Shown piece by piece: positions 16,763 to 29,576 of a DNA stretch of 64,000 nucleotides. Under the pieces are notes generated by a model. The model did no database searches. It was not told the origin of the DNA and saw only the letters and a list, made by a program, of their open reading frames with translations. The DNA comes from Planotetraspora mira (GTDB lineage Bacteria > Actinomycetota > Actinomycetes > Streptosporangiales > Streptosporangiaceae). Positions within the stretch are counted from its first letter, which is position 1. Each line of letters begins with the position of its first letter. Location: contig NZ_BOOO01000039.1 in NCBI RefSeq assembly GCF_016863275.1, forward strand, positions 1 through 64,000, read 5' to 3'. The position numbers and the translations under genes were made by a program.

Positions 16763-18007
16763 TCACCCGAAGCTCTCCTCTGGAGACTCCAGCCGAGCCT
16801 TGAGCGCCCGCAGGAACAGCGCGGCGTCGCGGCCGTTGATCAGCCGGTGGTCGTAGGCCATGCCGATGTTGACGACGGTCCGGGCGACGACCTCGCCCCC
16901 GTCGAGGCGGAGCTCGGCCTGGGGGGACGTCACCGCGAGCGCGCACGCGTGGCCAGGGAAGATCAGCGGGATGGCCAGCGTCACGTCGCCGTCGTGATGC
17001 AGGGTGACCGCGATGTTGGCCCCGGTCAGGTCGTCCTCGCGGAAGTCCCCCGTCAGGGCGGCCAGCCGATACTCCATCAGACGGGTCGCGATCTGCTTCA
17101 CCGAGCGGCGGGCGGCGTCGTGGATGACGGGCACATACAGGCCCTCGCCCGCGTCGATCGTCACGCCGACGTGAGGGGCGTCCGGGAGCAGGGCCGACGC
17201 GTCGTCCACGAGGGTGGCGAAGCACAGCGGGAAGTCGGCGTGCAGCCGGGCCACGGCGGACGTCACCAGTTCGGGGAGCCCCACGGGCCGCCTGACCTCA
17301 CGGGTCAGACGCGCCGCGAGCTCCAGCAGGGGGCCCACGTCGGCCTTCACCACCGTGTACGCGGCCGGGATGGTCGCGTGCGAGACGCGCACGACCTTCG
17401 CCACGGCCCGCTGCACCCTCGTGAGCCCGTACGGCAGGCCCGCCACGCCCTGTCTCGGCCCTCCGGGCTCGTCGACGTCCTCCACGGACGCCGACGCGGA
17501 ACGGGCCGCGAGCCGTTCGACGTCGGCACGCCGGACCACGGCCACTCCGAGGGTGCGCACCACCGCCGGATCGAGGCCGAGCTCGTCGATCAGCGCCTGC
17601 GCGGGAGCGGTGATCAGCGGCGCGGCGCCGCCTGATGACGCTTCGACCGCGGGGCCGCCCGAAGACGCGCCGCCCGTGGCCGCACCGGCTGAGGAGGCAC
17701 TGGCCGTGACGGGGACGTCCGAGGAGGGAGACGGCCCCGGGTGCGGCGGCATGGACAATGGCGTGGGCCGGACCTCACCGGCGGTGAGGTGGGCGAGCAC
17801 ATCCCCGGGAGCGCAGTCGGCGTTCGGCGCGACGACGCGCCAGACGAAGCCGTCCTGCTCGCTCTCCAGTTCCTCGGTCGCCTTCGAGGTCTCCAGGACC
17901 ACGATCGGGTCTCCGGCCTTGACCTGCTGCCCGTCGTCGACCAGCCATTCGACCAGGACGTACGTGGAGTCGTTGTTGTTGAGCTTGGGCACGCGGATGT
18001 CAGTCAC
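16763..18007 (-). CDS. Divergent 2-oxoacid dehydrogenase E2 (lipoyl acyltransferase)
   Basis: A 414-residue E2-like protein. Domains: lipoyl domain with the modifiable lysine in ETSKATEE (Lys42); Ala/Ser/Gly-rich linker (about 80-130); E3/E1-binding domain (about 132-170); and acyltransferase domain (about 190-410). The active-site His387 is present, but the catalytic Asp of the HxxxDG motif is Asn391 (HRLING). The usual serine-containing FTISNLG motif is replaced by NIAVTLHHDGD. It starts with GTG and overlaps the E1-beta gene by 8 nt. No E3 gene is nearby, so a housekeeping E3 would reoxidise it. It may transfer an acyl group to a carrier protein; this is inferred. Confidence 0.88.
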   Translation of the reverse strand: MTDIRVPKLNNNDSTYVLVEWLVDDGQQVKAGDPIVVLETSKATEELESEQDGFVWRVVAPNADCAPGDVLAHLTAGEVRPTPLSMPPHPGPSPSSDVPVTASASSAGAATGGASSGGPAVEASSGGAAPLITAPAQALIDELGLDPAVVRTLGVAVVRRADVERLAARSASASVEDVDEPGGPRQGVAGLPYGLTRVQRAVAKVVRVSHATIPAAYTVVKADVGPLLELAARLTREVRRPVGLPELVTSAVARLHADFPLCFATLVDDASALLPDAPHVGVTIDAGEGLYVPVIHDAARRSVKQIATRLMEYRLAALTGDFREDDLTGANIAVTLHHDGDVTLAIPLIFPGHACALAVTSPQAELRLDGGEVVARTVVNIGMAYDHRLINGRDAALFLRALKARLESPEESFG

Positions 18008-19004
18008 GCAGGGCCTCCAGCACCGCGTCGTGGATCGTGGAGTCCTGCACGAGGACGGCGCGCTCGAGATGCGCGGCCGTGGGGATCACGCTGTCGGCCG
18101 AGCTGACCAGCGCCACCGGCCGCCGCAGGTCCTTCCACATCAGCCGGTGGATCTGGTGGGCCACCTCGCTTCCCCAGGTGCCGCCCGCGGTGCCCTCCTC
18201 TGCCACCAGTACGGCTCTCGCCCCGCGGAGCGCGGGCAGCAGAGGCTCGGCGTCGAACGGGTACAGCCGCGAGGGGACGAGCAGGCAGCAGGTGACCTCC
18301 TGCTCCAGCAGGAGGTCACGCATGGCACGGACCGCACGGTCGACCATCCCTCCGGGAGCGATGATGACGCAGTCGGCCGCCTCGGGGTCGTCCAGGAACA
18401 CGCGGGCCACGTCGGCGCCCCCGCCGCCTCCCGGGACGACGTCGTGCCGGAACAGGTCGCCGACGTCGTTCACGCGCCGCGTGTAGAGGATCTTGTCCTC
18501 GAAGAACACGCACGGCCCGCCGGACGCCAGCATGGCGTCGAGCACCGCGCGGTTGTCGTGCAGGGGGGACATCTCGTAGACCGACAGGCCGGGCACGCCC
18601 ACGAAGTGTTTCTGCAGGCTCTGGCTGTGGGTGGGACCGTACCCCCGCCCGCCGCCCGTCGGGCACCTGACGACCATCCGGATCGGCACGCGGGAGCCGT
18701 ACATCGTGACGGACTTGGCCGCGAAGTTGACGATCTGGTCGAACGCGAGCGCCACGAAGTCGCCGAACATGATCTCGACGACGGCCGCGTCACCGCACAA
18801 CGCGAGCCCCGCGGCCAGGCCGGTGATGCCGGACTCGCTGATCGGGGTCCCGAGCACACGGTCGGGGAACCGGCTGGACAGCCCCTTTGTGATCTTGAAA
18901 GCGCCGCCGTACGGGTCGAGGATGTCCTCGCCGATCACGTAGGCCGACGGGTCCGACTCCAGCAGCCCGTGAAGGGCGGCGTTGAGGTTCTCCCCCACTC
19001 TCAT
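18000..19004 (-). CDS. 2-oxoacid dehydrogenase E1 beta subunit
   Basis: A 334-residue transketolase-like pyrimidine-binding and C-terminal domain protein. It shows the E1-beta hallmarks IGEDILDPYGGAFKITKGL, TPISESGITGLAAGLAL and RCPTGGGRGYGPTHSQS (the active-site His region). With E1-alpha it decarboxylates a 2-oxoacid on thiamine diphosphate and loads the acyl group on E2 lipoate. The ATG at 19004 overlaps the E1-alpha stop (ATGA). The substrate acid is unknown; pyruvate, branched-chain acids and less common acids all remain possible. Confidence 0.92.
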   Translation of the reverse strand: MRVGENLNAALHGLLESDPSAYVIGEDILDPYGGAFKITKGLSSRFPDRVLGTPISESGITGLAAGLALCGDAAVVEIMFGDFVALAFDQIVNFAAKSVTMYGSRVPIRMVVRCPTGGGRGYGPTHSQSLQKHFVGVPGLSVYEMSPLHDNRAVLDAMLASGGPCVFFEDKILYTRRVNDVGDLFRHDVVPGGGGGADVARVFLDDPEAADCVIIAPGGMVDRAVRAMRDLLLEQEVTCCLLVPSRLYPFDAEPLLPALRGARAVLVAEEGTAGGTWGSEVAHQIHRLMWKDLRRPVALVSSADSVIPTAAHLERAVLVQDSTIHDAVLEALRD

Positions 19005-19921
19005 GGGTCCCACCTCGACGGCGGGCGGGCGGAGACCTCGCGCACGATCGCCTCCACGCGGGCGCGCTGGGCCTCGTCGGCGCGGGCGAACCGCTCGGGG
19101 TCCGCCTCGCCGTACAGGCGGTACCAGTCCTCGGCCTGCGCGTGCCGTACGGCCTCGGGATCACGGGTGTCGTCGCCCTTGCTGTGCGGGCCGAGGCGGT
19201 GCGTGGCGAACTCCGCGACCAGGGGCCTGCCCTCGATCCGCACCTCGGAGACGAGCGGCGCGAGTTCGTCCCTGATCGTGCTCAGATCGGACGACTCGAT
19301 GCCGTGGTGGCGCACCCCGAACGCCTCGGCGCGGGCGCGGACGGTCCCGGCCATCTGACGGGTGGTGGGAGTCGACTGGGCGATGCCGTTGTTCTCCACG
19401 ATCACGAGCAGTGGGAGGCGCCAGAGCGAGGCCAGGTTGAGCGCCTCGTAGACCGCGCCCTCGCCCCACGTGCCGTCGCCGATGAAGACGCAGGCCAGCG
19501 TGCCCGGCTCGGTGCGCTTGAGATGCAGTGCGACGCCCGCGGCCACCGGGAGGCTCTCCCCCTGGACGCCCGTGGAGACGTAGCGGTCGCGCAGGATGTG
19601 CTGGCTGCCGCCTACGCCCGCGCAGACCGCGCCCTCCCGGCCCATGATCTCGGCCAGCAGTCCCGCCGGATCGTCGAACCTCGCCAGATAGTGGCCGTGC
19701 CCGCGGTGGTTGCCGAAGACGAAGTCGGCCTCCGTGAGCAGCCGCCGCAACGCGACGGGGACGTACTCCTGCCCCAGGCAGGTGTGCGTGGTGCCGTTGA
19801 GCTCACCACGCCCGAACAGGTCGAGCAGCGCCAGTTCGAAGTGCCGGATCAGGAGAAGGCGGGCGAGGTCGTCGTCATCGGCCCGCGGAGCGTGGAGGAG
19901 AGTCGCACCCGTCTCCGTCAC
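19001..19921 (-). CDS. 2-oxoacid dehydrogenase E1 alpha subunit
   Basis: A 306-residue thiamine-diphosphate-binding subunit. The cofactor motif runs from GDGTWGEGAVYEALNLASLW to VENN (about residues 140-175). NHRGHGHYLA and GVGGSQHI around residues 70-105 are also family features. It starts with GTG at 19921 and overlaps the upstream condensation-carrier gene by four bases (GTGA). Its place inside a carrier-protein operon, not a pdh or bkd operon, suggests a role in supplying a biosynthetic acyl unit. Confidence 0.92.
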   Translation of the reverse strand: MTETGATLLHAPRADDDDLARLLLIRHFELALLDLFGRGELNGTTHTCLGQEYVPVALRRLLTEADFVFGNHRGHGHYLARFDDPAGLLAEIMGREGAVCAGVGGSQHILRDRYVSTGVQGESLPVAAGVALHLKRTEPGTLACVFIGDGTWGEGAVYEALNLASLWRLPLLVIVENNGIAQSTPTTRQMAGTVRARAEAFGVRHHGIESSDLSTIRDELAPLVSEVRIEGRPLVAEFATHRLGPHSKGDDTRDPEAVRHAQAEDWYRLYGEADPERFARADEAQRARVEAIVREVSARPPSRWDP

Positions 19922-21501
19922 CGGCGGCTGCCCGACGCGTCAGGCAGGCCGGGCTCACGCCCGGCGGCGATGGACTCCAGGACGCCGGCGATCGTCGGGG
20001 TGTCGAAGAAGACGTCGAGCGGGACCTCGACGTCCAGGCGCTTGCGCATCCGCGCGATGATCTGGGTGATGGTCAGCGAATGGCCTCCCAGGTCGAAGAG
20101 GTCCTCCTCGTCGCCGATCTCGTCGATGCCGAGCACCTCCTGCCAGATGGCCCTGATCTCCTCGGCGAGGCCTTCCTGTTCGGTACGGCCCGCCGCGATG
20201 TCCTCAATGACGGTGTCCGGATTTTTCATAATTGAAGAGAGGTCCTTCGCTATGTGAGTGACATCCGGAAGCGTGCGCGAGCTGTACTGCATGATCACGT
20301 CGAGGCCGTCGGGCCCGTCGACGGCCTGGAGGTGCAGGGTGCTGCGGACGGCGTGGTTGAAGACGGCCCAGTCCACGGACGTGTCCAGCTCGGCGAACTC
20401 GGGCTCCTCCCGGCGCCGGCGGTAGCTGACCGACACGGGCGCCAGTGCCGTACGCGGTCGCAGGCCCCGGACGGCACGGGCCAGCGGCACCTGACGGAAC
20501 CGGTAGAGGAGCCGCAGGTCGTCATGGAGCCGGCCGGCGAGCCCGGCGACCGTCATGCCGGGCGCGGGCGCCGACCACACGGGAAGCTCGTTGACGAACA
20601 GGCCGATGTGGTCGCGCACCTCCGGCGTCCGCGTGGACATGTCGACGGCGCACACCGGTTCGGCGTTGCCGTACGCGAACAGGAGGGCGTGCACGGAGGC
20701 GAGGAAGACCTCGAACCGGGAGACGCCCGGCACGTCACGCAACGCGGCCCGGAAGGTGTGGACGCCGCCTTCCGTGGCCTCACGCGATCGCACCGCTCCA
20801 GCGGGCCCGCTCGACGAGCCGCGCCTGCCGGACACACCGGACCCTCCGGGCAAGCCGGGCATGTCGGACGTGTCGGACGTGTCGGGCTCGCCGGACGCAC
20901 TGGACGCGCCGGGCAGCACGGGCAGCACGATCTCGGCCGGCTCCCGCCACCGGCCCCGCCAGTACTCCCCCGCCTCGCCGAGCACGGCGTGGACCCGCTC
21001 CCGCTCGGCCGCCGCGTGGTCCGCGTACGACATCGTGAGGCGGGCGAGCGGGCGCCCGTTGTAGAAGGCGGCCAGATCGCGGACCAGCACGTCCTTGGAC
21101 TCGCCGTCGAAGACCAGATGGTGCGCCACGACCAGCAGCACGTGCCGGGAGGACGACACGCGGGCGAGCGTGAACCGGACGAGCGGCCCCTTCCCGACGT
21201 CGAAGGGCCGCAGGGTCTCCGCACGCACCAGCGGGCCGATGTCCTCCGTGGCCGTGACGGTGACCTGGGGACGTTCCGCCGGGACCTCGACCGGGATGCC
21301 GTCCTGCTCCTCGATGGCGGTCGCCAGGATGGGATGCCGTCTGACCAGCGTCTCGCACGCCTGGATCAGCGCGCAGGCGTCCAGCGGCCCGTCGAAGGTG
21401 ATCAGCAACGGCATGTGATAGGCGGAGCCCGCCCGCCCCATCCGCTCGGTGAGCCACATTCCCACCTGGGCGAACGACGCCTGCCTCGGGTCGGCGCTCA
21501 T
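19918..21501 (-). CDS. Two-domain NRPS protein: condensation domain plus carrier domain
   Basis: A 527-residue C-PCP didomain. The condensation domain (about 1-440) has an intact HHLVFDG motif (127-133). The carrier domain (about 450-515) has DLFDLGGHSL with the phosphopantetheine serine at 475. Residues about 205-240 are a low-complexity stretch of Ser/Asp/Pro/Gly repeats. It joins a donor acyl group to an acceptor on a carrier protein. The acceptor selection must come from the free AMP-ligase upstream, since it has no adenylation domain of its own. It overlaps both neighbours by four bases. Confidence 0.92.
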   Translation of the reverse strand: MSADPRQASFAQVGMWLTERMGRAGSAYHMPLLITFDGPLDACALIQACETLVRRHPILATAIEEQDGIPVEVPAERPQVTVTATEDIGPLVRAETLRPFDVGKGPLVRFTLARVSSSRHVLLVVAHHLVFDGESKDVLVRDLAAFYNGRPLARLTMSYADHAAAERERVHAVLGEAGEYWRGRWREPAEIVLPVLPGASSASGEPDTSDTSDMPGLPGGSGVSGRRGSSSGPAGAVRSREATEGGVHTFRAALRDVPGVSRFEVFLASVHALLFAYGNAEPVCAVDMSTRTPEVRDHIGLFVNELPVWSAPAPGMTVAGLAGRLHDDLRLLYRFRQVPLARAVRGLRPRTALAPVSVSYRRRREEPEFAELDTSVDWAVFNHAVRSTLHLQAVDGPDGLDVIMQYSSRTLPDVTHIAKDLSSIMKNPDTVIEDIAAGRTEQEGLAEEIRAIWQEVLGIDEIGDEEDLFDLGGHSLTITQIIARMRKRLDVEVPLDVFFDTPTIAGVLESIAAGREPGLPDASGSRR

Positions 21502-22919
21502 GCCCGTGCCCGCAGTGCGCGCTTGTCGACCTTGCCGCCGCGGTTGCGCGGCAGGGAGTCCATCGTGACGATCTCGGAGGGGATCTCGTGCTGCGCCAGC
21601 CGGTCGCGGAGGAAGCCCCGGATGTCGGCGTTGGACACCTCGTCCCGCAGGACGACGGCCGCGGCGACGGCCGTGCCGAGGACGGGGTGGGGAAGCCCGT
21701 AGGCCGCGGCCTCGACCACCGCGGGATGCTCGTAGAGCGCGTTCTCGACCTTCAGCGTCGAGACCTTGAAAGCGCCGGATTTGACGACGTCGCCGTCCCT
21801 GTCGACCAGGTAGAGGTAGCCGTCCTCGTCGAGATAGCCGAGGTCGCCCATGCGGATCCAGCCGCCCCGGAAGACGTCGGTGCTGGCCGCGGGGTCGTTG
21901 TAGTACGACCGGGGTGCCGCGGGTGAGCGCATCCACACCTCACCGGTCTCGCCGGGCGGCAGGTCCTCGCCCTCGGGCGAGGCGATGCGGACGTCGCCGC
22001 CCGCCGCCGACCTGCCGACGGAACCCGGCCGGTCAGGGTCGAAGAGCATGATCGTTTGTGCGGGCGCCGCCTCGGTCGAGGTGTAGTAGTTGGTGATCGT
22101 CGCCTTCGGGAACATCCGGGTCAGCCCGGCCGCGACCGCCGGCGGCAACGGCGCGGCCGCCGAGCCGAGCAGCAGGACACTCGACAGGTCGGGGCCTTCC
22201 TGGAGGTTGAGCAACTCCACGGCCATCGCCGGCACGAGGAAGACCGTTCCAGCCCGATGTCTCTCGATGAGCGCGGCGAACCGTCCGGGTGTGAAGCGGG
22301 GCAGGGTGACCACGGCGGGGTGCACGGTCAGGGCGTTGACGAGCATCATCTGGCCGGCGTTGGTGCCGATCGGGAACGCGTGGACCAGGTGCCGGGAATG
22401 GGCGAACGCCCTGCGTCTCGGCTGGGCACGCGCTCCGAAGGCCAGGTTGGCGTGGGTGGCGGCGACGCCCTTCGCCCTGCCCGTCGTGCCGGACGTGTAG
22501 AGGATCTGCGCCATCCCGGCGGGCCTGAGCGGCACATCCGGCGGCGATGCGGAGCCTTCCGGCAGCCCCTCCAGGTCCGTGAGGATCAGGGACGTGGAGC
22601 AGTGCGAGGCGATCTGCTCGATCTCCGCGGCGGGCATGCGGTCCGACAGCGGGACCGCCACCGCCCCCGCCTTCAGCACCCCGATGAACGCCACCGCGTA
22701 GTCGATCCAGCCGGAACCGGGGAAGAGCAGCCCGACCCGGTCGCCGCCGCGTACGCCGCGCTCCAGCAGGCCGTTGGCGACCGCGTTCGACCGCGCCTGC
22801 CATTCTCCGAAGGTCAGCTCTCCGGATCCATGCACGATCATCGCGAGGGTTTCCGGCTCAGAGGCCGCCCGCGCGGTCAGAATGTCGGGAAGGGTCGGCG
22901 TTTCGAGCACGCTTCTCAA
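21498..22919 (-). CDS. AMP-dependent acyl/aminoacyl ligase (stand-alone adenylation enzyme)
   Basis: A 473-residue ANL-superfamily enzyme that activates a carboxylic acid as acyl-AMP. Motifs: ILYTSGTTGRAKGV (P-loop, about 138-151), NYYTSTEAAP (A5, about 265), WIRMGDLGYLDEDGYLYLVDRDGDVVKSG (about 360-390) and the C-terminal lysine in NRGGKVDKR (about 463-471). It looks closer to acyl-CoA/acyl-ACP ligases than to NRPS A domains with a clear amino-acid code, so the substrate is open. The start is a TTG with GGGGG 7 nt upstream; a GTG 9 nt later is an alternative. It is the first gene of the five-gene minus-strand operon. Confidence 0.88.
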   Translation of the reverse strand: MRSVLETPTLPDILTARAASEPETLAMIVHGSGELTFGEWQARSNAVANGLLERGVRGGDRVGLLFPGSGWIDYAVAFIGVLKAGAVAVPLSDRMPAAEIEQIASHCSTSLILTDLEGLPEGSASPPDVPLRPAGMAQILYTSGTTGRAKGVAATHANLAFGARAQPRRRAFAHSRHLVHAFPIGTNAGQMMLVNALTVHPAVVTLPRFTPGRFAALIERHRAGTVFLVPAMAVELLNLQEGPDLSSVLLLGSAAAPLPPAVAAGLTRMFPKATITNYYTSTEAAPAQTIMLFDPDRPGSVGRSAAGGDVRIASPEGEDLPPGETGEVWMRSPAAPRSYYNDPAASTDVFRGGWIRMGDLGYLDEDGYLYLVDRDGDVVKSGAFKVSTLKVENALYEHPAVVEAAAYGLPHPVLGTAVAAAVVLRDEVSNADIRGFLRDRLAQHEIPSEIVTMDSLPRNRGGKVDKRALRARA

Positions 22920-23454
22920 TTGGCTGCCCCCGAATGGTTCGGATGATTACCGGACGACCGACGCGCTTGACCATGCCTTATTGAAAAGGTTGTTTCCAGT
23001 TTCCCCAGAGGGCCAGTCTCGCATGGAGCACCAACCCGAGACAAGGGATTCCGCACTCTGCGACGACGCCGCGGCGAGACGTCCGCATTTGACCGGCGGG
23101 TCTTGAGACTGCGACGGAGCCGTGCAAGACTTACGGCCATCCACTAATTGCAAACCTTCTTTTCAGTTAGTCGTCGACAGGGTCTTTGGCCTGGCCATTT
23201 GGTCTGCATTCATCCGACCACATGGGGGATCATGCCGGAAATGCGTGCCATCTCGGAGATTCCGCTTCCTTATACACAGGAACGGTCCGCTTACCGCACG
23301 AACTCATCCCAGGTGACCCCACCCCCACGATCTGTCCGGAATCGAAAAGCGGCCCGGCGATCGCACGGACCCCTGGGATCGGCACCGTGAGACCGGCCCT
23401 GACAACTGGCCCTGACGGCCGCCTGGAGAACGGACCCCTGAGAGCGGAGGCGGA
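22920..23454. promoter_or_regulatory. Divergent promoter region of the biosynthetic cluster
   Basis: This 535-bp gap is the longest without a gene and is noticeably less GC-rich than the flanking genes. It must hold the promoters of both biosynthetic operons, but I could not pick convincing -35/-10 pairs. TATACA at 23271-23276 and the palindrome TGGCC-T-GGCCA near 23190-23200 are the best signals. An open frame at 23232-23390 (52 codons, GGGGG before its ATG) has weak third-position GC and is probably not a gene. GGAGG precedes the carrier-protein ATG at 23455. Confidence 0.5.
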
Positions 23455-23691
23455 ATGCTCAAGGAACGACTGGCGCAACTGGTGTCGGAGGCCTGCGACG
23501 GGGAGGTCACGGCGGCCGAGGCCCTGGGTGCCACCGTCCCCCTGTCCTACCTCGGTGTCACCTCGCTTGCCCAGATGCGCCTGATCGACGCGCTCGAGCG
23601 CGAGTACGACGTAGAGATCGACCTGGCCGAGGACGTCTCGTTCCTCGACAGCGTCGACGGCCTCGCCGCGTGGGTGTCGGCAGCCCGATGA
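23455..23691 (+). CDS. Free-standing acyl/peptidyl carrier protein
   Basis: A 78-residue carrier protein of four-helix type. The phosphopantetheine attachment site is YLGVTSL with Ser37. It would hold an acyl or aminoacyl group as a thioester for the condensation enzymes. The ATG has GGAGG 5 nt upstream, and its stop overlaps the next start as ATGA. Possible loading routes are the divergent AMP-ligase or the E1/E2 complex. Confidence 0.92.
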   Translation: MLKERLAQLVSEACDGEVTAAEALGATVPLSYLGVTSLAQMRLIDALEREYDVEIDLAEDVSFLDSVDGLAAWVSAAR

Positions 23692-24962
23692 TCACTTTCA
23701 CGGGGGCACGCAGGGGTACGGCACCTCTGACCTGGGGCCAGCGGGCCATCTGGGACACCATCCAGCGGACCGCGCCCGACGACCACTACTTCAACTTCGG
23801 GCGGATCCTCGAGGTGCCGCGGGGGGCGCGGCCCGCCTCGATCGCCCATGTGGCACGGAGCGTCGGGCTGCTCGTCGAGCGGCACGAGGCGCTGCGCACG
23901 CTGATCGGGCCGGGCCCGGTCCAGGACCTGCGTGACCGCGGCGAACTGCCCCTCCGGATCGCGGCGGACGCGGAACCCGCCGCCGTTCTCGCCGAGTTGT
24001 CCGCGACGGCCTTCGACTACGCGGGCGAATGGCCGGTGCGGGTCGCGTTCGTGACCCGCGGCGACGAGGTCACGCATGTGGTGCTCGCGTTCTGCCACCT
24101 GGCCTCCGACGGGCTCGGCGCGGAGGAGGTCGTCCGCGATCTGCGGCTTCTCCTCCTGCGCGGAGGCCTGAGCGGCGGCCCTCCCCCGCAGCCGTTCGAC
24201 CTCGCCGGGTGGCAGGCGTCGCCCGCGGGCCGGCGGCAGGCGGCGAGCGCCGCGGCGTTCTGGGAGCGCGAGCATCTCAGGATGCCGCCCACGATGTTCC
24301 ACGTCCCCTCGGGGGCGGCGGAGCGACCGCCCGTCTGGCGGGCCACGCTCAGCTCTCCGGCGGCCGACCTGTCCGCCCAGCGCCTGGCCGTACGGCACGG
24401 CACGAGCACCTCGACGGTTCTGCTCACGGCCGTCGGCGCGCTGGTCGCGGAGGTCACGGGCCACGAGACCGTCACCGTGCTGCCCATCGTCAGCAACCGA
24501 TTCCGTGCCTCGACGCGCACCTCGGTGACCACGCTGTCGCAGGAGGGCCTGTTCGTCCTCGAAGCGGGCAAGGCGCGGTTCACCGACCTGCTGGCCGAGT
24601 CGGGCCCCGCGGTGTTGCGCGCCTACCGCAGCGCCTACCATGACCCGGCCGACCGTGAGCGAGTCGTCGCGGAGGCGTCCCGCGAGCGCGGCACCCCGAT
24701 CCACCCGTACTGCTGCTTCAACGACATGCGCTTCGTCGAGCAGGCGGTCTACCGCGACGAGGAGCTGATCCGCCGGGCACTGCCCGAGACCTCCGTGTCC
24801 TGGCCGCTCAGCCAGGACAAGCTGAACTGCCGGTTCTGCGTGCATCTCGGGGGCGCCGCACAGGTCTCGCTCACCGCCGACACCCGCTGGCTGTCCCGGG
24901 CGGACATCGAGAGGTTCCTGCTCGGCCTGGAGAGGATGCTCGTCGAGGCGGCCCTCCGATGA
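23688..24962 (+). CDS. Free-standing condensation-domain protein
   Basis: A 424-residue chloramphenicol-acetyltransferase-fold protein of the NRPS condensation family. The active-site motif reads CHLASDG (136-142): the second, catalytic histidine and the structural Asp are kept, and the first His is Cys. N-terminal LTWGQRAIWDTIQR and a C-terminal LPIVSNRFR...TTLSQEGLFVLE region match the family. It acts on the preceding carrier protein by inference. Both ends overlap their neighbours as ATGA, so the three genes are translated together. Confidence 0.88.
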   Translation: MITFTGARRGTAPLTWGQRAIWDTIQRTAPDDHYFNFGRILEVPRGARPASIAHVARSVGLLVERHEALRTLIGPGPVQDLRDRGELPLRIAADAEPAAVLAELSATAFDYAGEWPVRVAFVTRGDEVTHVVLAFCHLASDGLGAEEVVRDLRLLLLRGGLSGGPPPQPFDLAGWQASPAGRRQAASAAAFWEREHLRMPPTMFHVPSGAAERPPVWRATLSSPAADLSAQRLAVRHGTSTSTVLLTAVGALVAEVTGHETVTVLPIVSNRFRASTRTSVTTLSQEGLFVLEAGKARFTDLLAESGPAVLRAYRSAYHDPADRERVVAEASRERGTPIHPYCCFNDMRFVEQAVYRDEELIRRALPETSVSWPLSQDKLNCRFCVHLGGAAQVSLTADTRWLSRADIERFLLGLERMLVEAALR

Positions 24963-26953
24963 CGGTCCGCGCCCATGCCACCGCCACCTCCTGCGCGCAG
25001 GGCGAGGAGTTGGGCTTCCGTCTGGACGCCACCGGCCCGGTGGGCGTGACCGTCCACGACGCGACCAGCGACCGGCTCGTGCTGGCGGCCACGGTCCACG
25101 GCCCGTCCTGGACGTTGCGCGTGCCCGGGGACTGGCCGAGTTCGCTCTACCGGGCGCGGTTCGTCTCCGGCCCGCCAGAGCCCGACGTGCTCGTCCCCAG
25201 GCCCTCGGGCGACCTCCCCGGCATCGGCACGTCACCCGACGACGAGGTCTACTTCGTCGTACGGCAGGCCACCCCGGGCGCCACCTCGCCCATCCTGGTG
25301 TCCGTCCCGTTCACCACCTGGCAGGCGTACAACCGGGCAGGAGTCCCCGGTGAGAGCGTCTACTGGACCGAGCAGCCCGACCGTGCCTCCCGCGTGACGT
25401 TCGACCGGCCGGGCGGCGGCCCGCCTCCCGAGCGGTGGGAGGACGGCCTGCTGCGCTGGCTCTCCCCGGCCGGATACACCGTCGAGTACTGCTCCGGTCT
25501 CGATCTCGACCCCGGTCTGCTCTCCGCGTACCGCCTGCTGGTCGTCAACGGGCACGACGAGTACTGGTCGGCCGGCATGCGGGACGCGTGCGAGGGGTTC
25601 GCCAGGCGCGGGGGGAACATCGCCTTCTTCTCCGGCAACACCTGCTGGTGGCAGATCCGCGTGGAGGGACGCACCATGGTGTGCCACCGCGATCCGCTGA
25701 CCGACCCGGTGGACGACCCCGCGCTGACGACGGTCGAGTGGTCGAGCGCACCCGTCTCCCGCCCGGAGAACTCGCTGACCGGGGTCAGCTTCCGCAACGG
25801 CGCGGGAACCTGGGGACCGTCCATGCCGCTGATGCGGGAGGAGTCGTACACCGCGCGGTTCGCCGGGCACTGGGCGTTCGAGGGGACGGGACTGACCGAC
25901 GGCGACAAGTTCGGGCAGGGCTCGCTCGGATACGAGACCGACGCCGCCGAGTTCACCGAGGTGATGGGCGTCCCCCGGGTCACCTGCAGGGACGGCACCC
26001 CCACGACGTTCGTCGTGCTGGCGACGGCCGACCTGCGGCACTGGAGCTCCGGCGGACAGGGCGGCTGGGCCACGATGGGCGTCTTCTCCCTCGGACGCGG
26101 CACGGTCTTCAACGCGGCCACCGTCAACTGGGGCAACACCATCCACGACCCGATCGTGGAGCGGATCACGAGGAACGTCATCGACCGGCTCTCGCGACCG
26201 GCCGTGCCCGCCTGGGAAATGATCGGCCCGGTCGCCGACGTCCGCGCACTGGCCGCGTCCGGCTCGGCGCTGTACGCCGTGAGCGCCGACGACGCGCTGC
26301 TCACCCGCGAGCTGTGCGGCCAGAACATGCAGTGGATGCCGATCGGCCGCGCGGGGGGCGTTGTGTGTCTCGACGCCCCGCGCGAGGCCGGCGCCGGCCT
26401 CGGCACCGGTCTGTACGGTGTGACCGCCGAGGGGATGCTCCGCTACCGCGAGGCGGCCCCGGGCCCGGCGGAGAGCGCTGCGGGGGGCGCGGCCGGACCC
26501 ATGGGATGGGCCGGGGGTCCCGGCGAGTGGATCGATTTGGGTGGAGCGCCGGCCGGCACGATCGCCCTCGCGGTGCAGGACGGGACCTTCTTCGCGGCCA
26601 CCTCCGCGGGCCGCCTGTGGGCGGTGACCTTCGCCGAACTCGCCGCGTCCCCGCACGCTCGCTGGCACGATGCCGGGGACTCGGCCGGGGCCGTCTGCCT
26701 GAGCGGGAGCAACGGCCGGGTCTACGCGCTGGGAGCCGACCACCGGTTGCGCACGCGCCTGCCCGTCCCCGCCCCCTCCGCGTGGTCGCTCCTCGGCGAA
26801 GCCCCGGGCGCGGCGGTCCTGACCGTCCACGCGGGACTGCTCGTCACCGCCGCGAGCGGCCAGCCGTTGCGGTGGCGGGCCGCCACGACCTTCACCGCTC
26901 GCCGGGCCGCTTCCTCTGAATCACCGGGCGGAATCCCGGGAGCCGGCTCCTGA
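24959..26953 (+). CDS. N,N-dimethylformamidase-like protein with a propeller-like C-terminal region
   Basis: A 664-residue protein. Residues 1-90 form a small beta-domain. Residues about 95-420 resemble the N,N-dimethylformamidase large-subunit family (SVPFTTWQAYN; VNGHDEYWS with Tyr202; GGNIAFFSGNTCWW; GWATMGVFSLGRGTVFNAATVNW). The characterised enzyme is an iron-dependent amidohydrolase with Tyr/Tyr/Glu ligands. Residues about 425-650 contain at least four repeats with a W-x-x-(I/L)-G-(R/E/G)-A core, as in tectonin-type propellers. There is no signal peptide. In this operon it may cleave or form an amide of the product, or bind it; this is inferred. Confidence 0.8.
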   Translation: MTVRAHATATSCAQGEELGFRLDATGPVGVTVHDATSDRLVLAATVHGPSWTLRVPGDWPSSLYRARFVSGPPEPDVLVPRPSGDLPGIGTSPDDEVYFVVRQATPGATSPILVSVPFTTWQAYNRAGVPGESVYWTEQPDRASRVTFDRPGGGPPPERWEDGLLRWLSPAGYTVEYCSGLDLDPGLLSAYRLLVVNGHDEYWSAGMRDACEGFARRGGNIAFFSGNTCWWQIRVEGRTMVCHRDPLTDPVDDPALTTVEWSSAPVSRPENSLTGVSFRNGAGTWGPSMPLMREESYTARFAGHWAFEGTGLTDGDKFGQGSLGYETDAAEFTEVMGVPRVTCRDGTPTTFVVLATADLRHWSSGGQGGWATMGVFSLGRGTVFNAATVNWGNTIHDPIVERITRNVIDRLSRPAVPAWEMIGPVADVRALAASGSALYAVSADDALLTRELCGQNMQWMPIGRAGGVVCLDAPREAGAGLGTGLYGVTAEGMLRYREAAPGPAESAAGGAAGPMGWAGGPGEWIDLGGAPAGTIALAVQDGTFFAATSAGRLWAVTFAELAASPHARWHDAGDSAGAVCLSGSNGRVYALGADHRLRTRLPVPAPSAWSLLGEAPGAAVLTVHAGLLVTAASGQPLRWRAATTFTARRAASSESPGGIPGAGS

Positions 26954-26980: not shown

Positions 26981-27664
26981 TCAGGTCACGTCCGGCGCCG
27001 GATCGCCCGGCTGGACGAAGCCCGACTCGTAGCCGAGGATCACCGCCTGTACGCGATCGCGGAGATTCAGCTTGCGCAAGCCGGACGCGACATGCGTCTT
27101 GACGGTCGTCTCCGCGAGGAAGAGGTCGGCCGCGATCTCGGCGTTGGACCGTCCCCGGACGAGACCGCGGAAGACGTCGAGCTCACGGGTGGTGAGGGCG
27201 GCCAGCGGCGCAGGGACCCCGCCGGAGACGTCCACCGGCGGGCGGCGGACGTACCGCTCCACCAGCCGCCTGGTCAGTGACGGGTCCAGCAGGGCTTCGC
27301 CTGCCGCGGCCGTGCGGACCGTGTGCAGGAGATGCGCACGAGGAGACGACTTCAGCAGGAATCCGCTCGCACCGGCGCTGAGCGCCGCATACAGGTATTC
27401 ATCGAGGTCGAAGGTGGTCAGCATGACGACCCGGGCTTCCAGGCGCGGATTGGCGAGTATCCGCCGTGCCGCCTCCAGACCCCCGGCTCCGGGCATCTGC
27501 ACGTCCAGGAGCACGACGTCCGGCCGGTGGTGCAGCGTCTCCCGGACGGCCGACTCTCCGTCCACCGTGTCGGCGGCGACCTCGATGTCCGGCTGCGCCT
27601 CGAGGATCATCCGGAGCCCGGCCCGGACGAGTTCCTGGTCGTCGGCGAGGATCACCCTGATCAT
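26981..27664 (-). CDS. NarL/LuxR-type response regulator
   Basis: A 227-residue two-component response regulator. The receiver domain (1-120) has the phosphoacceptor Asp54 in VLLDVQMP, with acidic ADD at 8-9 and Lys near 104. The LuxR-type HTH (about 155-215) reads LTTRELDVFRGLVRGRSNAEIAADLFLAETTVKTHVASGLRKL. It overlaps the kinase stop as ATGA and converges on the biosynthetic operon. Likely targets include the membrane-protein gene at 28986 and perhaps the biosynthetic cluster. Confidence 0.93.
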   Translation of the reverse strand: MIRVILADDQELVRAGLRMILEAQPDIEVAADTVDGESAVRETLHHRPDVVLLDVQMPGAGGLEAARRILANPRLEARVVMLTTFDLDEYLYAALSAGASGFLLKSSPRAHLLHTVRTAAAGEALLDPSLTRRLVERYVRRPPVDVSGGVPAPLAALTTRELDVFRGLVRGRSNAEIAADLFLAETTVKTHVASGLRKLNLRDRVQAVILGYESGFVQPGDPAPDVT

Positions 27665-28809
27665 GTCGCCACCGCGCCCGCCGCCTGTACGGGCAGGCGG
27701 GCGCAGACCCGGAAACCGGGTCCGTCGGTACGGCGGCCCGCCTCGACGTCGCCGCCGAGGGCCTGCGCGCGCTCTTGCATTCCGACCAGCCCCATCCCGT
27801 TTCCGGTGGACGTCACACCGGCCACCCCGTCGTCGAGAACCTCGACCCGGACGATCCGATCCCCGTACTCGACCCGCACGGAGGCATGGGTCGCGCGCGC
27901 GTGTTTCATCGTGTTGGTCAACGCCTCCTGGACGATCCGGTACACGACTGTCCGCATGGCCTCGTCATCCGGAGGGGCCCCGGTCTGATCGAGATCCACC
28001 GTGACGCCGGCCGCGCGCACCGGCGCCAGCAGCGTCGCGATGTCCGCGCCGTCACCGGTCTGCCGCAGGACGCCGAGCATCCGGCCCAGATCGCCGATCG
28101 CCGCGCGACCTGTCGCCGCGATCGCGTCCAGGGCCGGCCCCACGTGCTGCGGACGGGTGGCCAGGACCTCGCCTGCCGCCTCGGCCTGCACCACCATGAG
28201 GCTCACGCCATGAGAGATGACGTCGTGCAGATCACGTGCGATCCGGGTGCGCTCCTGTGCCGCGGCGATCTCCCGGAGATGGACCCGCTCGCGTTCGAGC
28301 GTCGCCGCGTGCTCGACCGCCGCGCGCGCCTGGGCCGCCCGCTGCCGCGCCAGCCATCCCAGTAGCCCGGCACCGCCGAAGTACGCGACGGGATAGACGA
28401 CGTTGAACAGGCTGTCCGTCCCCGCGGAGACCTCGCGCATGGCAACCACAGAGGTCGCGGCGATGAGCATGGGGAAGCCGGCCAGGGCCGTCCGGGCACT
28501 GCCGTACCTGGCCAGGGTGAGTGCGGCGAGGATGGCGCCGACGAACGTCGCGAAGACCGGTACGCCGAGCGTCACGGCCATGACGGAGATGGCGCCGCTC
28601 ACGCCGAGCGTGCCGGTCAACGGCCGGCGCCGCAGGAGCGCGACCGAGCACCCGTTCACCAACGCGGCGACCAGAGCCAGACCCAGCCATCGGTGGCTCG
28701 CCGACTCGGCCATCAACTGCACCACGCCGATCCCGCCCGCCCCGCACCCGGCGAGTGTGTAGGCATGCCGCGTCCATCGGCGGGAGCGATCGAACGCCTC
28801 GTGAATCAT
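27661..28809 (-). CDS. Sensor histidine kinase (HisKA_3 type)
   Basis: A 382-residue membrane kinase. Five to six transmembrane helices fill residues about 15-155. The dimerisation/phosphoacceptor domain has RTRIARDLHDVISHG with His195. The HATPase domain has VQEALTNTMKHA, DDGVAG and GMGLVGMQERA (about 285-360). The ATG at 28809 is taken as the start; no strong ribosome binding site is visible, and a TTG 9 nt upstream is possible. The lack of a large external domain suggests it senses a membrane-borne signal. Confidence 0.9.
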   Translation of the reverse strand: MIHEAFDRSRRWTRHAYTLAGCGAGGIGVVQLMAESASHRWLGLALVAALVNGCSVALLRRRPLTGTLGVSGAISVMAVTLGVPVFATFVGAILAALTLARYGSARTALAGFPMLIAATSVVAMREVSAGTDSLFNVVYPVAYFGGAGLLGWLARQRAAQARAAVEHAATLERERVHLREIAAAQERTRIARDLHDVISHGVSLMVVQAEAAGEVLATRPQHVGPALDAIAATGRAAIGDLGRMLGVLRQTGDGADIATLLAPVRAAGVTVDLDQTGAPPDDEAMRTVVYRIVQEALTNTMKHARATHASVRVEYGDRIVRVEVLDDGVAGVTSTGNGMGLVGMQERAQALGGDVEAGRRTDGPGFRVCARLPVQAAGAVAT

Positions 28810-28860
28810 GATTGCCAAGGCTAACCACGCGCGTTCGCGGCCACCGCCTCCGTACGGCCG

Positions 28861-28890
28861 AACCGCCTCCTCCGCCCGGAGGAGGCGGTT
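28861..28890. promoter_or_regulatory. Perfect 13-bp inverted repeat between the kinase and a divergent membrane-protein gene
   Basis: AACCGCCTCCTCC pairs exactly with GGAGGAGGCGGTT across GCCC. A second inverted repeat, GCCGTG-CGG-CACGGC, lies at 28911-28925. Both sit between divergent starts (28809 minus, 28986 plus), where terminators are not expected and no U-run follows. An operator for the response regulator, or a leader hairpin of the kinase transcript, is more likely. Confidence 0.5.
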
Positions 28891-28985
28891 GCTTCCGCCG
28901 CAGGACGCCTGCCGTGCGGCACGGCTCCTACCGTTCCGACCCACGACCGCGGCACAGGGCAGCGGGTACGGGAAGGAGAGACACG

Positions 28986-29576
28986 ATGACTGAGGCACCG
29001 GCAGTGGCGCAGCAGGTCGTTTCCGTGGAGGATCGCTGGCGCGTGGCGTCGCTCTGGGCCGGTCCGGCGGCCGCCGTGGGCGTCGTCCTGATGGCCGTCG
29101 CGATCGCCATGACCGGCGGCGACGAGCTCGCGATGGCGACCGCGCCGGCCGCGCTGGGTTCGACCCTGGCGGGACTGGTGGCGCTCGTCCTCATGGGGTT
29201 CGGGCTGGTGAGCCTGGCCGTCCGCCACCCCGGACTGAGGCGTGGCTTCGGTCTGCTGGCGTGGTTCGTGGCGGCGACCGGCACGGTCCTGAACGCCGGT
29301 GGCCAGTGGACGCAGCTGTTCGCCCTCCCCGGCCTGGCTCGTTCGGCGCCTGAACTCGCCACCAACGGCATCGACACCGTCCAGGCCGGCTACATCGCGT
29401 CGTTCCTGGTGCTGGCCCTCGGCGGCGTCCTGCTCGGCATCGCCCTGAACCGGGCCGGCGCGGGCAGGCTCGGCTCGATCCTGACGATCATCGGCGGGGT
29501 CATGATGGTGGCTCCGCTGCCGGCCAGGTGGGTGGTGCTGGCGATCGGCGTCTCCGTGCTCGCCCGCCGGCGCTGA
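28986..29576 (+). CDS. Multi-pass membrane protein next to the two-component system
   Basis: A 196-residue protein with about five transmembrane helices (roughly 27-44, 58-78, 87-105, 132-151 and 160-185). I do not recognise the family. GGAAGGAGAG lies 5-6 nt before the ATG at 28986. It is divergent from the histidine kinase across a short gap with two palindromes, so it is a good candidate for the system's target or signal partner. Longer upstream starts on this frame lack support. Confidence 0.75.
   Translation: MTEAPAVAQQVVSVEDRWRVASLWAGPAAAVGVVLMAVAIAMTGGDELAMATAPAALGSTLAGLVALVLMGFGLVSLAVRHPGLRRGFGLLAWFVAATGTVLNAGGQWTQLFALPGLARSAPELATNGIDTVQAGYIASFLVLALGGVLLGIALNRAGAGRLGSILTIIGGVMMVAPLPARWVVLAIGVSVLARRR

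Follow-up and report, generated by a model that had tools for sequence, protein, structure and literature searches.

A conserved eight-gene thiotemplate locus of Planotetraspora mira with a probable glycolyl-delivering E1/E2 cassette

We describe in Planotetraspora mira a cluster of eight genes that probably encodes the core of a glycolyl-using thiotemplate pathway, in which an E1/E2 enzyme would deliver a glycolyl unit to the carrier domain of a condensation-carrier didomain protein (C-CP). The steps beyond this loading core are less certain. The cluster lies in the window, a stretch of 64,000 nucleotides, and its assignment is drawn from sequence comparison.

The eight genes are arranged in two divergent operons, in which all junctions overlap by 4–8 nt. 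The minus-strand operon starts with LIG (21498..22919), an AMP-forming, FadD-like acyl ligase (Pfam AMP-binding; best PDB relative FadD5) proposed to load the free acyl carrier protein. It is followed by C-CP (19918..21501), composed of a condensation domain (HHLVFDG) and a carrier domain (GGHSL; Pfam Condensation and PP-binding) without an A domain, the proposed glycolyl acceptor. Next come the ThDP-binding E1-alpha (E1a, 19001..19921; Pfam E1_dh) and E1-beta (E1b, 18000..19004; Pfam Transket_pyr and Transketolase_C). The last gene encodes E2 (16763..18007), which joins a lipoyl domain (ETSKA) to an acyltransferase domain (Pfam Biotin_lipoyl and 2-oxoacid_dh). Overlaps are 4 nt at LIG/C-CP, C-CP/E1a and E1a/E1b, and 8 nt at E1b/E2. 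The plus-strand operon encodes a free acyl carrier protein (ACP, 23455..23691; GVTSL, Pfam PP-binding), a free condensation protein (free C, 23688..24962; Pfam Condensation) and DMF (24959..26953; Pfam DMFA2_C, PF20254), an N,N-dimethylformamidase (DMFase)-like predicted iron amidohydrolase with a C-terminal beta-propeller; both junctions, ACP/free C and free C/DMF, overlap by 4 nt. Operon arrangement, gene order and overlaps are thus as an earlier note on this DNA had read them, and so is the domain content, since each Pfam domain of all eight proteins scores above its cut-off. A two-component system (LuxR-type regulator and kinase, 26981–28998) adjoins DMF; the same is seen in L007, not in L006 or L008.

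The host genome (9.0 Mb) groups with Planotetraspora, and its free C protein shares 97% identity with the P. silvatica counterpart. Core genes flank the cluster: on one side the gene for an Lhr helicase, with recA further out, and on the other a sugar ABC transporter, a ROK regulator and a GH3 enzyme. Used as the query of a genome scan, the free C protein gave 77 loci. By tblastn and gene calling, LIG, C-CP, E1a, E1b, E2, ACP, C and DMF co-occur in most Streptosporangiaceae loci, usually at the same chromosomal site, and a small number of loci from Streptacidiphilus and Streptomyces also have the full set. Co-occurrence of the eight families, a check that the earlier note had proposed, thus extends to about 55 genomes, and the set is conserved as a unit. 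All eight genes evolve under purifying selection between congeners (dN/dS 0.04–0.39 against L006 and 0.11–0.32 against L008). Recurrence in about 55 genomes together with this selection places the gene set beyond chance. One locus, L079, carries free C and DMF as a pair without the other six genes.

The enzyme set had been labelled a 2-oxoacid dehydrogenase, and its top Pfam and NCBIfam matches are indeed PDH-like. The corresponding reading, in which E1/E2 would decarboxylate a 2-oxo acid and load acetyl or a branched-chain acyl group onto the carrier, is made plausible by the loading proposed for pepteridine, where an E1 works with an E2-T-C fusion (PMC5384830). The scores, however, fall far under every PDH, BCKDH and acetoin equivalog cut-off of NCBIfam (E1a 176 of 394 bits, E1b 168 of 321, E2 102 of 450–722). 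In the tree, E1a falls in a 55-row clade (support 100/100) with three NapB-type rows, and the PDH, acetoin and own-genome E1s lie outside it. RenH (renieramycin), on which nothing relevant was found in the literature searched, is placed just outside this clade and is 39–43% identical to E1a. The E2 active site also departs from the PDH type: DHRLING replaces DHRxxDG, and this D-to-N change, DHR(L/V)(I/V)NG, is found in 11/11 orthologues and in NapD-like E2s, whereas two housekeeping E2s of the same genome, L001 and L002, carry DHRLxDG. PDH-type identity was rejected on the tree and the E2 signature, and we consider loading from a 2-oxo acid improbable.

The E1/E2 set is best placed in the NapB/NapD family, whose glycolyl comes from ketose phosphate, as argued by the tree, the E2 signature and gene architecture; the label 2-oxoacid dehydrogenase is not the best description and should give way to this placement. 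E1a is 60–73% identical to its relatives in other thiotemplate clusters and 60–69% identical to NapB-type proteins, these references being recognised by their locus architecture (NapB-C-D-E), not by accession. E1a resembles NapB and SclQ2, E1b the N-terminal half of NapD and SclQ3, and E2 the C-terminal half of NapD and SclQ4. The active-site HSQ of E1b is present in 28/28 orthologues and the ThDP motif of E1a in 40/40. In L184, L190 and L191, E1a is accompanied by a carrier of 76 aa, an E1b-lipoyl-E2 fusion and a KAS III-sized protein (Pfam-confirmed in L184 and L191). This arrangement matches the NapB-C-D-E-type layout described for dnacin and naphthyridinomycin, in which the NapB/C/D homologues DinU, DinT and DinS measure 306, 76 and 754 aa (PMC7570522). 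These three clusters of tetrahydroisoquinoline-type layout come from two Streptosporangiaceae and one other actinomycete, and in L184 a UvrA-like gene adjoins the set. The comparison with naphthyridinomycin and quinocarcin made in the earlier note was the correct lead. A more distant E1a (48%) is carried by a Paenibacillus polymyxa plasmid (L177), together with two ACPs, E2, PKS genes and a same-type DHRVVNG motif. No E3 gene was found among the eight genes or in the scanned flanks; E3 is not strictly required of a 2-oxoacid dehydrogenase operon.

The position of the carrier points to the acceptor. Among main-family loci in which the gene directly upstream of E1a could be read, all 43 have a C-CP didomain or a lone A-less carrier in this position; the carrier is free (about 76–80 aa) in several and fused to C in the rest. 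Similar E1/E2 sets supply CoA in other clusters, and on that general ground one could suppose that E1/E2 feed acyl-CoA to primary metabolism or to a starter pool, the thiotemplate genes being mere neighbours. We judge this very unlikely. Almost every main-family locus shows translational coupling of E1/E2 with the carrier, four other E2 genes of the genome serve central metabolism, and E1/E2 are missing from the loci of relatives whose C-CP carries an A domain. A primary-metabolism role was rejected on the four E2 genes and the operon coupling. That E1/E2 would transfer an acyl group to a carrier protein, as the earlier note held, is also our reading.

Presence of the A domain and of E1/E2 appear mutually exclusive. 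All 58 C-CP orthologues without an A domain, seven of them seen in one search only, have E1a adjacent. C-CP orthologues with an A domain never have a local E1a (0/16): 12/16 of their genomes are without any family member, and in 4/16 the member lies in another cluster. The code of the A-bearing form, DI(V/L)QATVIW as read by eye, is near glycine codes. The pattern fits glycolyl replacing glycyl and is suggestive only; it counts as one event and not as replicates, because the tree needs only one change. In L138, L139 and L143–L146, the E1/E2 cassette is accompanied by glycosyltransferases (GT4, EryCIII/GT28-like) as well as a free carrier, with a GH1 glycosidase in addition in L138, which suggests that carrier-bound glycolyl is glycosylated in these clusters.

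One of the closest known systems is that of scleric acid in Streptomyces sclerotialus (SclQ1 ACP 76, SclQ2 305, SclQ3 338, SclQ4 386 aa). Deletion of sclQ1-Q4 abolishes the glycolate-containing product, and the cassette has been assigned to formation of the glycolic acid unit from ketose phosphate (PMC6335953), an assignment repeated in PMC13307308. The published scl gene table contains no E3 gene (PMC6335953). Order (CP-E1a-E1b-E2) and similar sizes are common to scl and P. mira. The scl product is an acyloxyacetyl amide built from carrier-bound glycolic acid, and scl has an MFS exporter. Differences are that the scl CP is free whereas that of P. mira is fused to C; that an ATP-grasp enzyme makes the benzoate ester in scl, where P. 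mira has LIG, ACP and C; and that scl uses a proline NRPS and a separate TE, and has neither free C nor a DMFase-like protein. The benzoate genes sclADI, the ATP-grasp SclG and the proline NRPS SclN have no counterpart among the eight genes.

The naphthyridinomycin (Nap) and quinocarcin (QncN/QncM/QncL) systems likewise have an E1a orthologue, a dedicated ACP, lipoyl E1b-E2 and a ketose-phosphate two-carbon unit entering an NRPS line, and in systems of this type an acyl ligase with a PCP begins the chain (DinN, PMC7570522). They differ in the E1b-E2 fusion, the KAS III partner, the tetrahydroisoquinoline product and the lack of a DMFase-like protein. The pepteridine locus (plu2792-2799) shares an E1, an E2 fused to T and C, and use of a carrier-held acyl by a C domain, and differs in an acyl proposed to come from a 2-oxo acid, a pterin acceptor and another gene set (PMC5384830). 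The earlier note knew of no described pathway with this set. This holds for the full eight genes, for which no described pathway was found in the literature searched (MIBiG lying outside its scope), and fails for the core CP-E1a-E1b-E2, which corresponds to sclQ1-Q4 and is documented by knock-outs (PMC6335953). The glycolyl cassette is thus already known; the literature searched contains no description of the C-CP fusion, of the pair formed by free C and the iron amidohydrolase, or of conservation across the family, and no paper on glycolate NRPS pathways in Streptosporangiaceae was found in it.

Comparison with relatives shows that the cluster is not self-contained. Between LIG and ACP, most of them have a C-A-T-TE protein with a fused MFS transporter, or else C-A-T or C-A-T-C-A-T, often with MbtH. 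The C-A-T-TE protein with an MFS transporter joined to its C-terminus (L009:4685-9811 and relatives) is common in the family. This insert is absent from the P. mira locus, three congeners and ten other loci. The P. mira gap retains, on the plus strand at 23238..23375, a frame-broken trace of the N-terminus of the relatives' NRPS (EMRAISEIPLPYTQER...; HELIPGDPTPTIC). The fossil was obtained by tblastn with the relatives' C-A-T-TE-MFS NRPS (E 0.001, two frames), and the reversed-sequence control of this search was empty. The small size of the P. mira cluster thus reflects deletion of a module of about 5 kb, and the eight genes were rejected as the full ancestral cluster.

Neither Pfam nor a gene scan of the locus found an NRPS, TE or exporter left in it. 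These absences and the fossil would suit a locus in decay, whose pathway, having lost its NRPS module, makes nothing now. All eight reading frames are nevertheless open, dN/dS stays at 0.04–0.39 against congeners with the same reduced locus, and the reduced eight-gene form recurs across several genera in 13 further genomes, and 12 of these possess another C-A-T-TE-MFS gene. A decaying remnant thus seems to us an unlikely reading. The 12/13 count lends weak support to a partner acting in trans, as C-A-T-TE-MFS genes are common in the family.

A candidate for such a partner lies elsewhere in the genome, on contig C22 (L212/L213, about 225250–237760). This locus encodes a lone carrier that shares 74% identity with that of C-CP, NRPS modules with glycine-like (DILQAVVIW) and basic-like (DTEDVLTII) codes, as read by eye, a C-A-T-TE-MFS protein with a serine-like code (DVWHVCLVD), an MbtH-ACP fusion and a free C protein; no E1/E2 was found in it. 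The C22 TE-MFS gene has relatives at 94–98% in three congeners that possess the eight genes, and a fourth congener has neither. For L247 and L253 (Nonomuraea, reduced locus), an orthologue of an Asp-type C-A-T-TE-MFS stands alone elsewhere in the genome. In P. mira, the C22 NRPS probably finishes the chain in trans.

DMF is probably a working amidohydrolase. It scores 232.6 bits against PF20254 (cut-off 27). A profile of 15 DMF orthologues matches the DMFase large subunit (6LVB; E 3.8e-10), a member of the same Pfam family, and N-acetyl-(R)-beta-phenylalanine acylase (8HUY); a PDB search with the single sequence gave no match. A fold match agrees with the profile at about 17% identity (DMF model pLDDT 73). 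H199, E201, N227 and E326 of DMF align with H519, E521, N547 and E657 of DMFase, change of any one of which abolishes activity (PMC7686228), and they are invariant in the 15 orthologues. The Fe ligands Y399 and Y440 of DMFase fall beyond the aligned stretch; Y124 and Y135 of DMF, in a low-confidence loop, are invariant candidates. DMF differs from both structures in its C-terminal beta-propeller, and no gene for the DMFase small subunit was found beside it. No paper in the literature searched combines a DMFase with an NRPS. The free C protein reads CHLASDG, the first His being replaced by Cys with the second His and the Asp retained, and nearly all of 75 relatives likewise have CHxxxDG instead of HHxxxDG.

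Taken together, a pathway can be proposed. E1a and E1b, with ThDP, would cleave a two-carbon unit off a ketose phosphate and pass it oxidatively to the lipoyl-E2 as glycolyl, the lipoate being re-oxidised by a host E3. By analogy with NapB/NapD, QncN/QncL and SclQ2-4, E2 would then move glycolyl onto the carrier domain of C-CP. The free ACP may receive a second acyl group from LIG, and with this group the condensation domain of C-CP may esterify the glycolyl hydroxyl. In the relatives, the in-locus C-A-T-TE-MFS would add an amino acid, release the product and export it; in P. mira this completion would probably fall to the C22 NRPS. The free C protein (acyl transfer) and DMF (amide cleavage) might act late.

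A broader scenario, which we offer tentatively and would not bet on, is that in one orthologous assembly line a lipoyl glycolyl cassette took the place of an A domain activating glycine, or vice versa. The products of sister clusters would then be isosteres of a single acyl-C2-peptide, amides in one case and esters in the other, and the reduced genomes would run a bipartite line with a distant NRPS, finished by the free C protein together with an iron amidohydrolase in a new role. If the glycine/glycolate exchange is true, it would represent a natural amide-to-ester change achieved through exchange of the loading enzyme with the C and carrier domains retained, and would be directly useful to biosynthetic engineering. 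The glycolyl cassette itself moves among at least three kinds of cluster. For the Streptosporangiaceae, a cluster held at one site across the family would be linked to glycolyl, which gives an isotope-labelling handle for finding its product.
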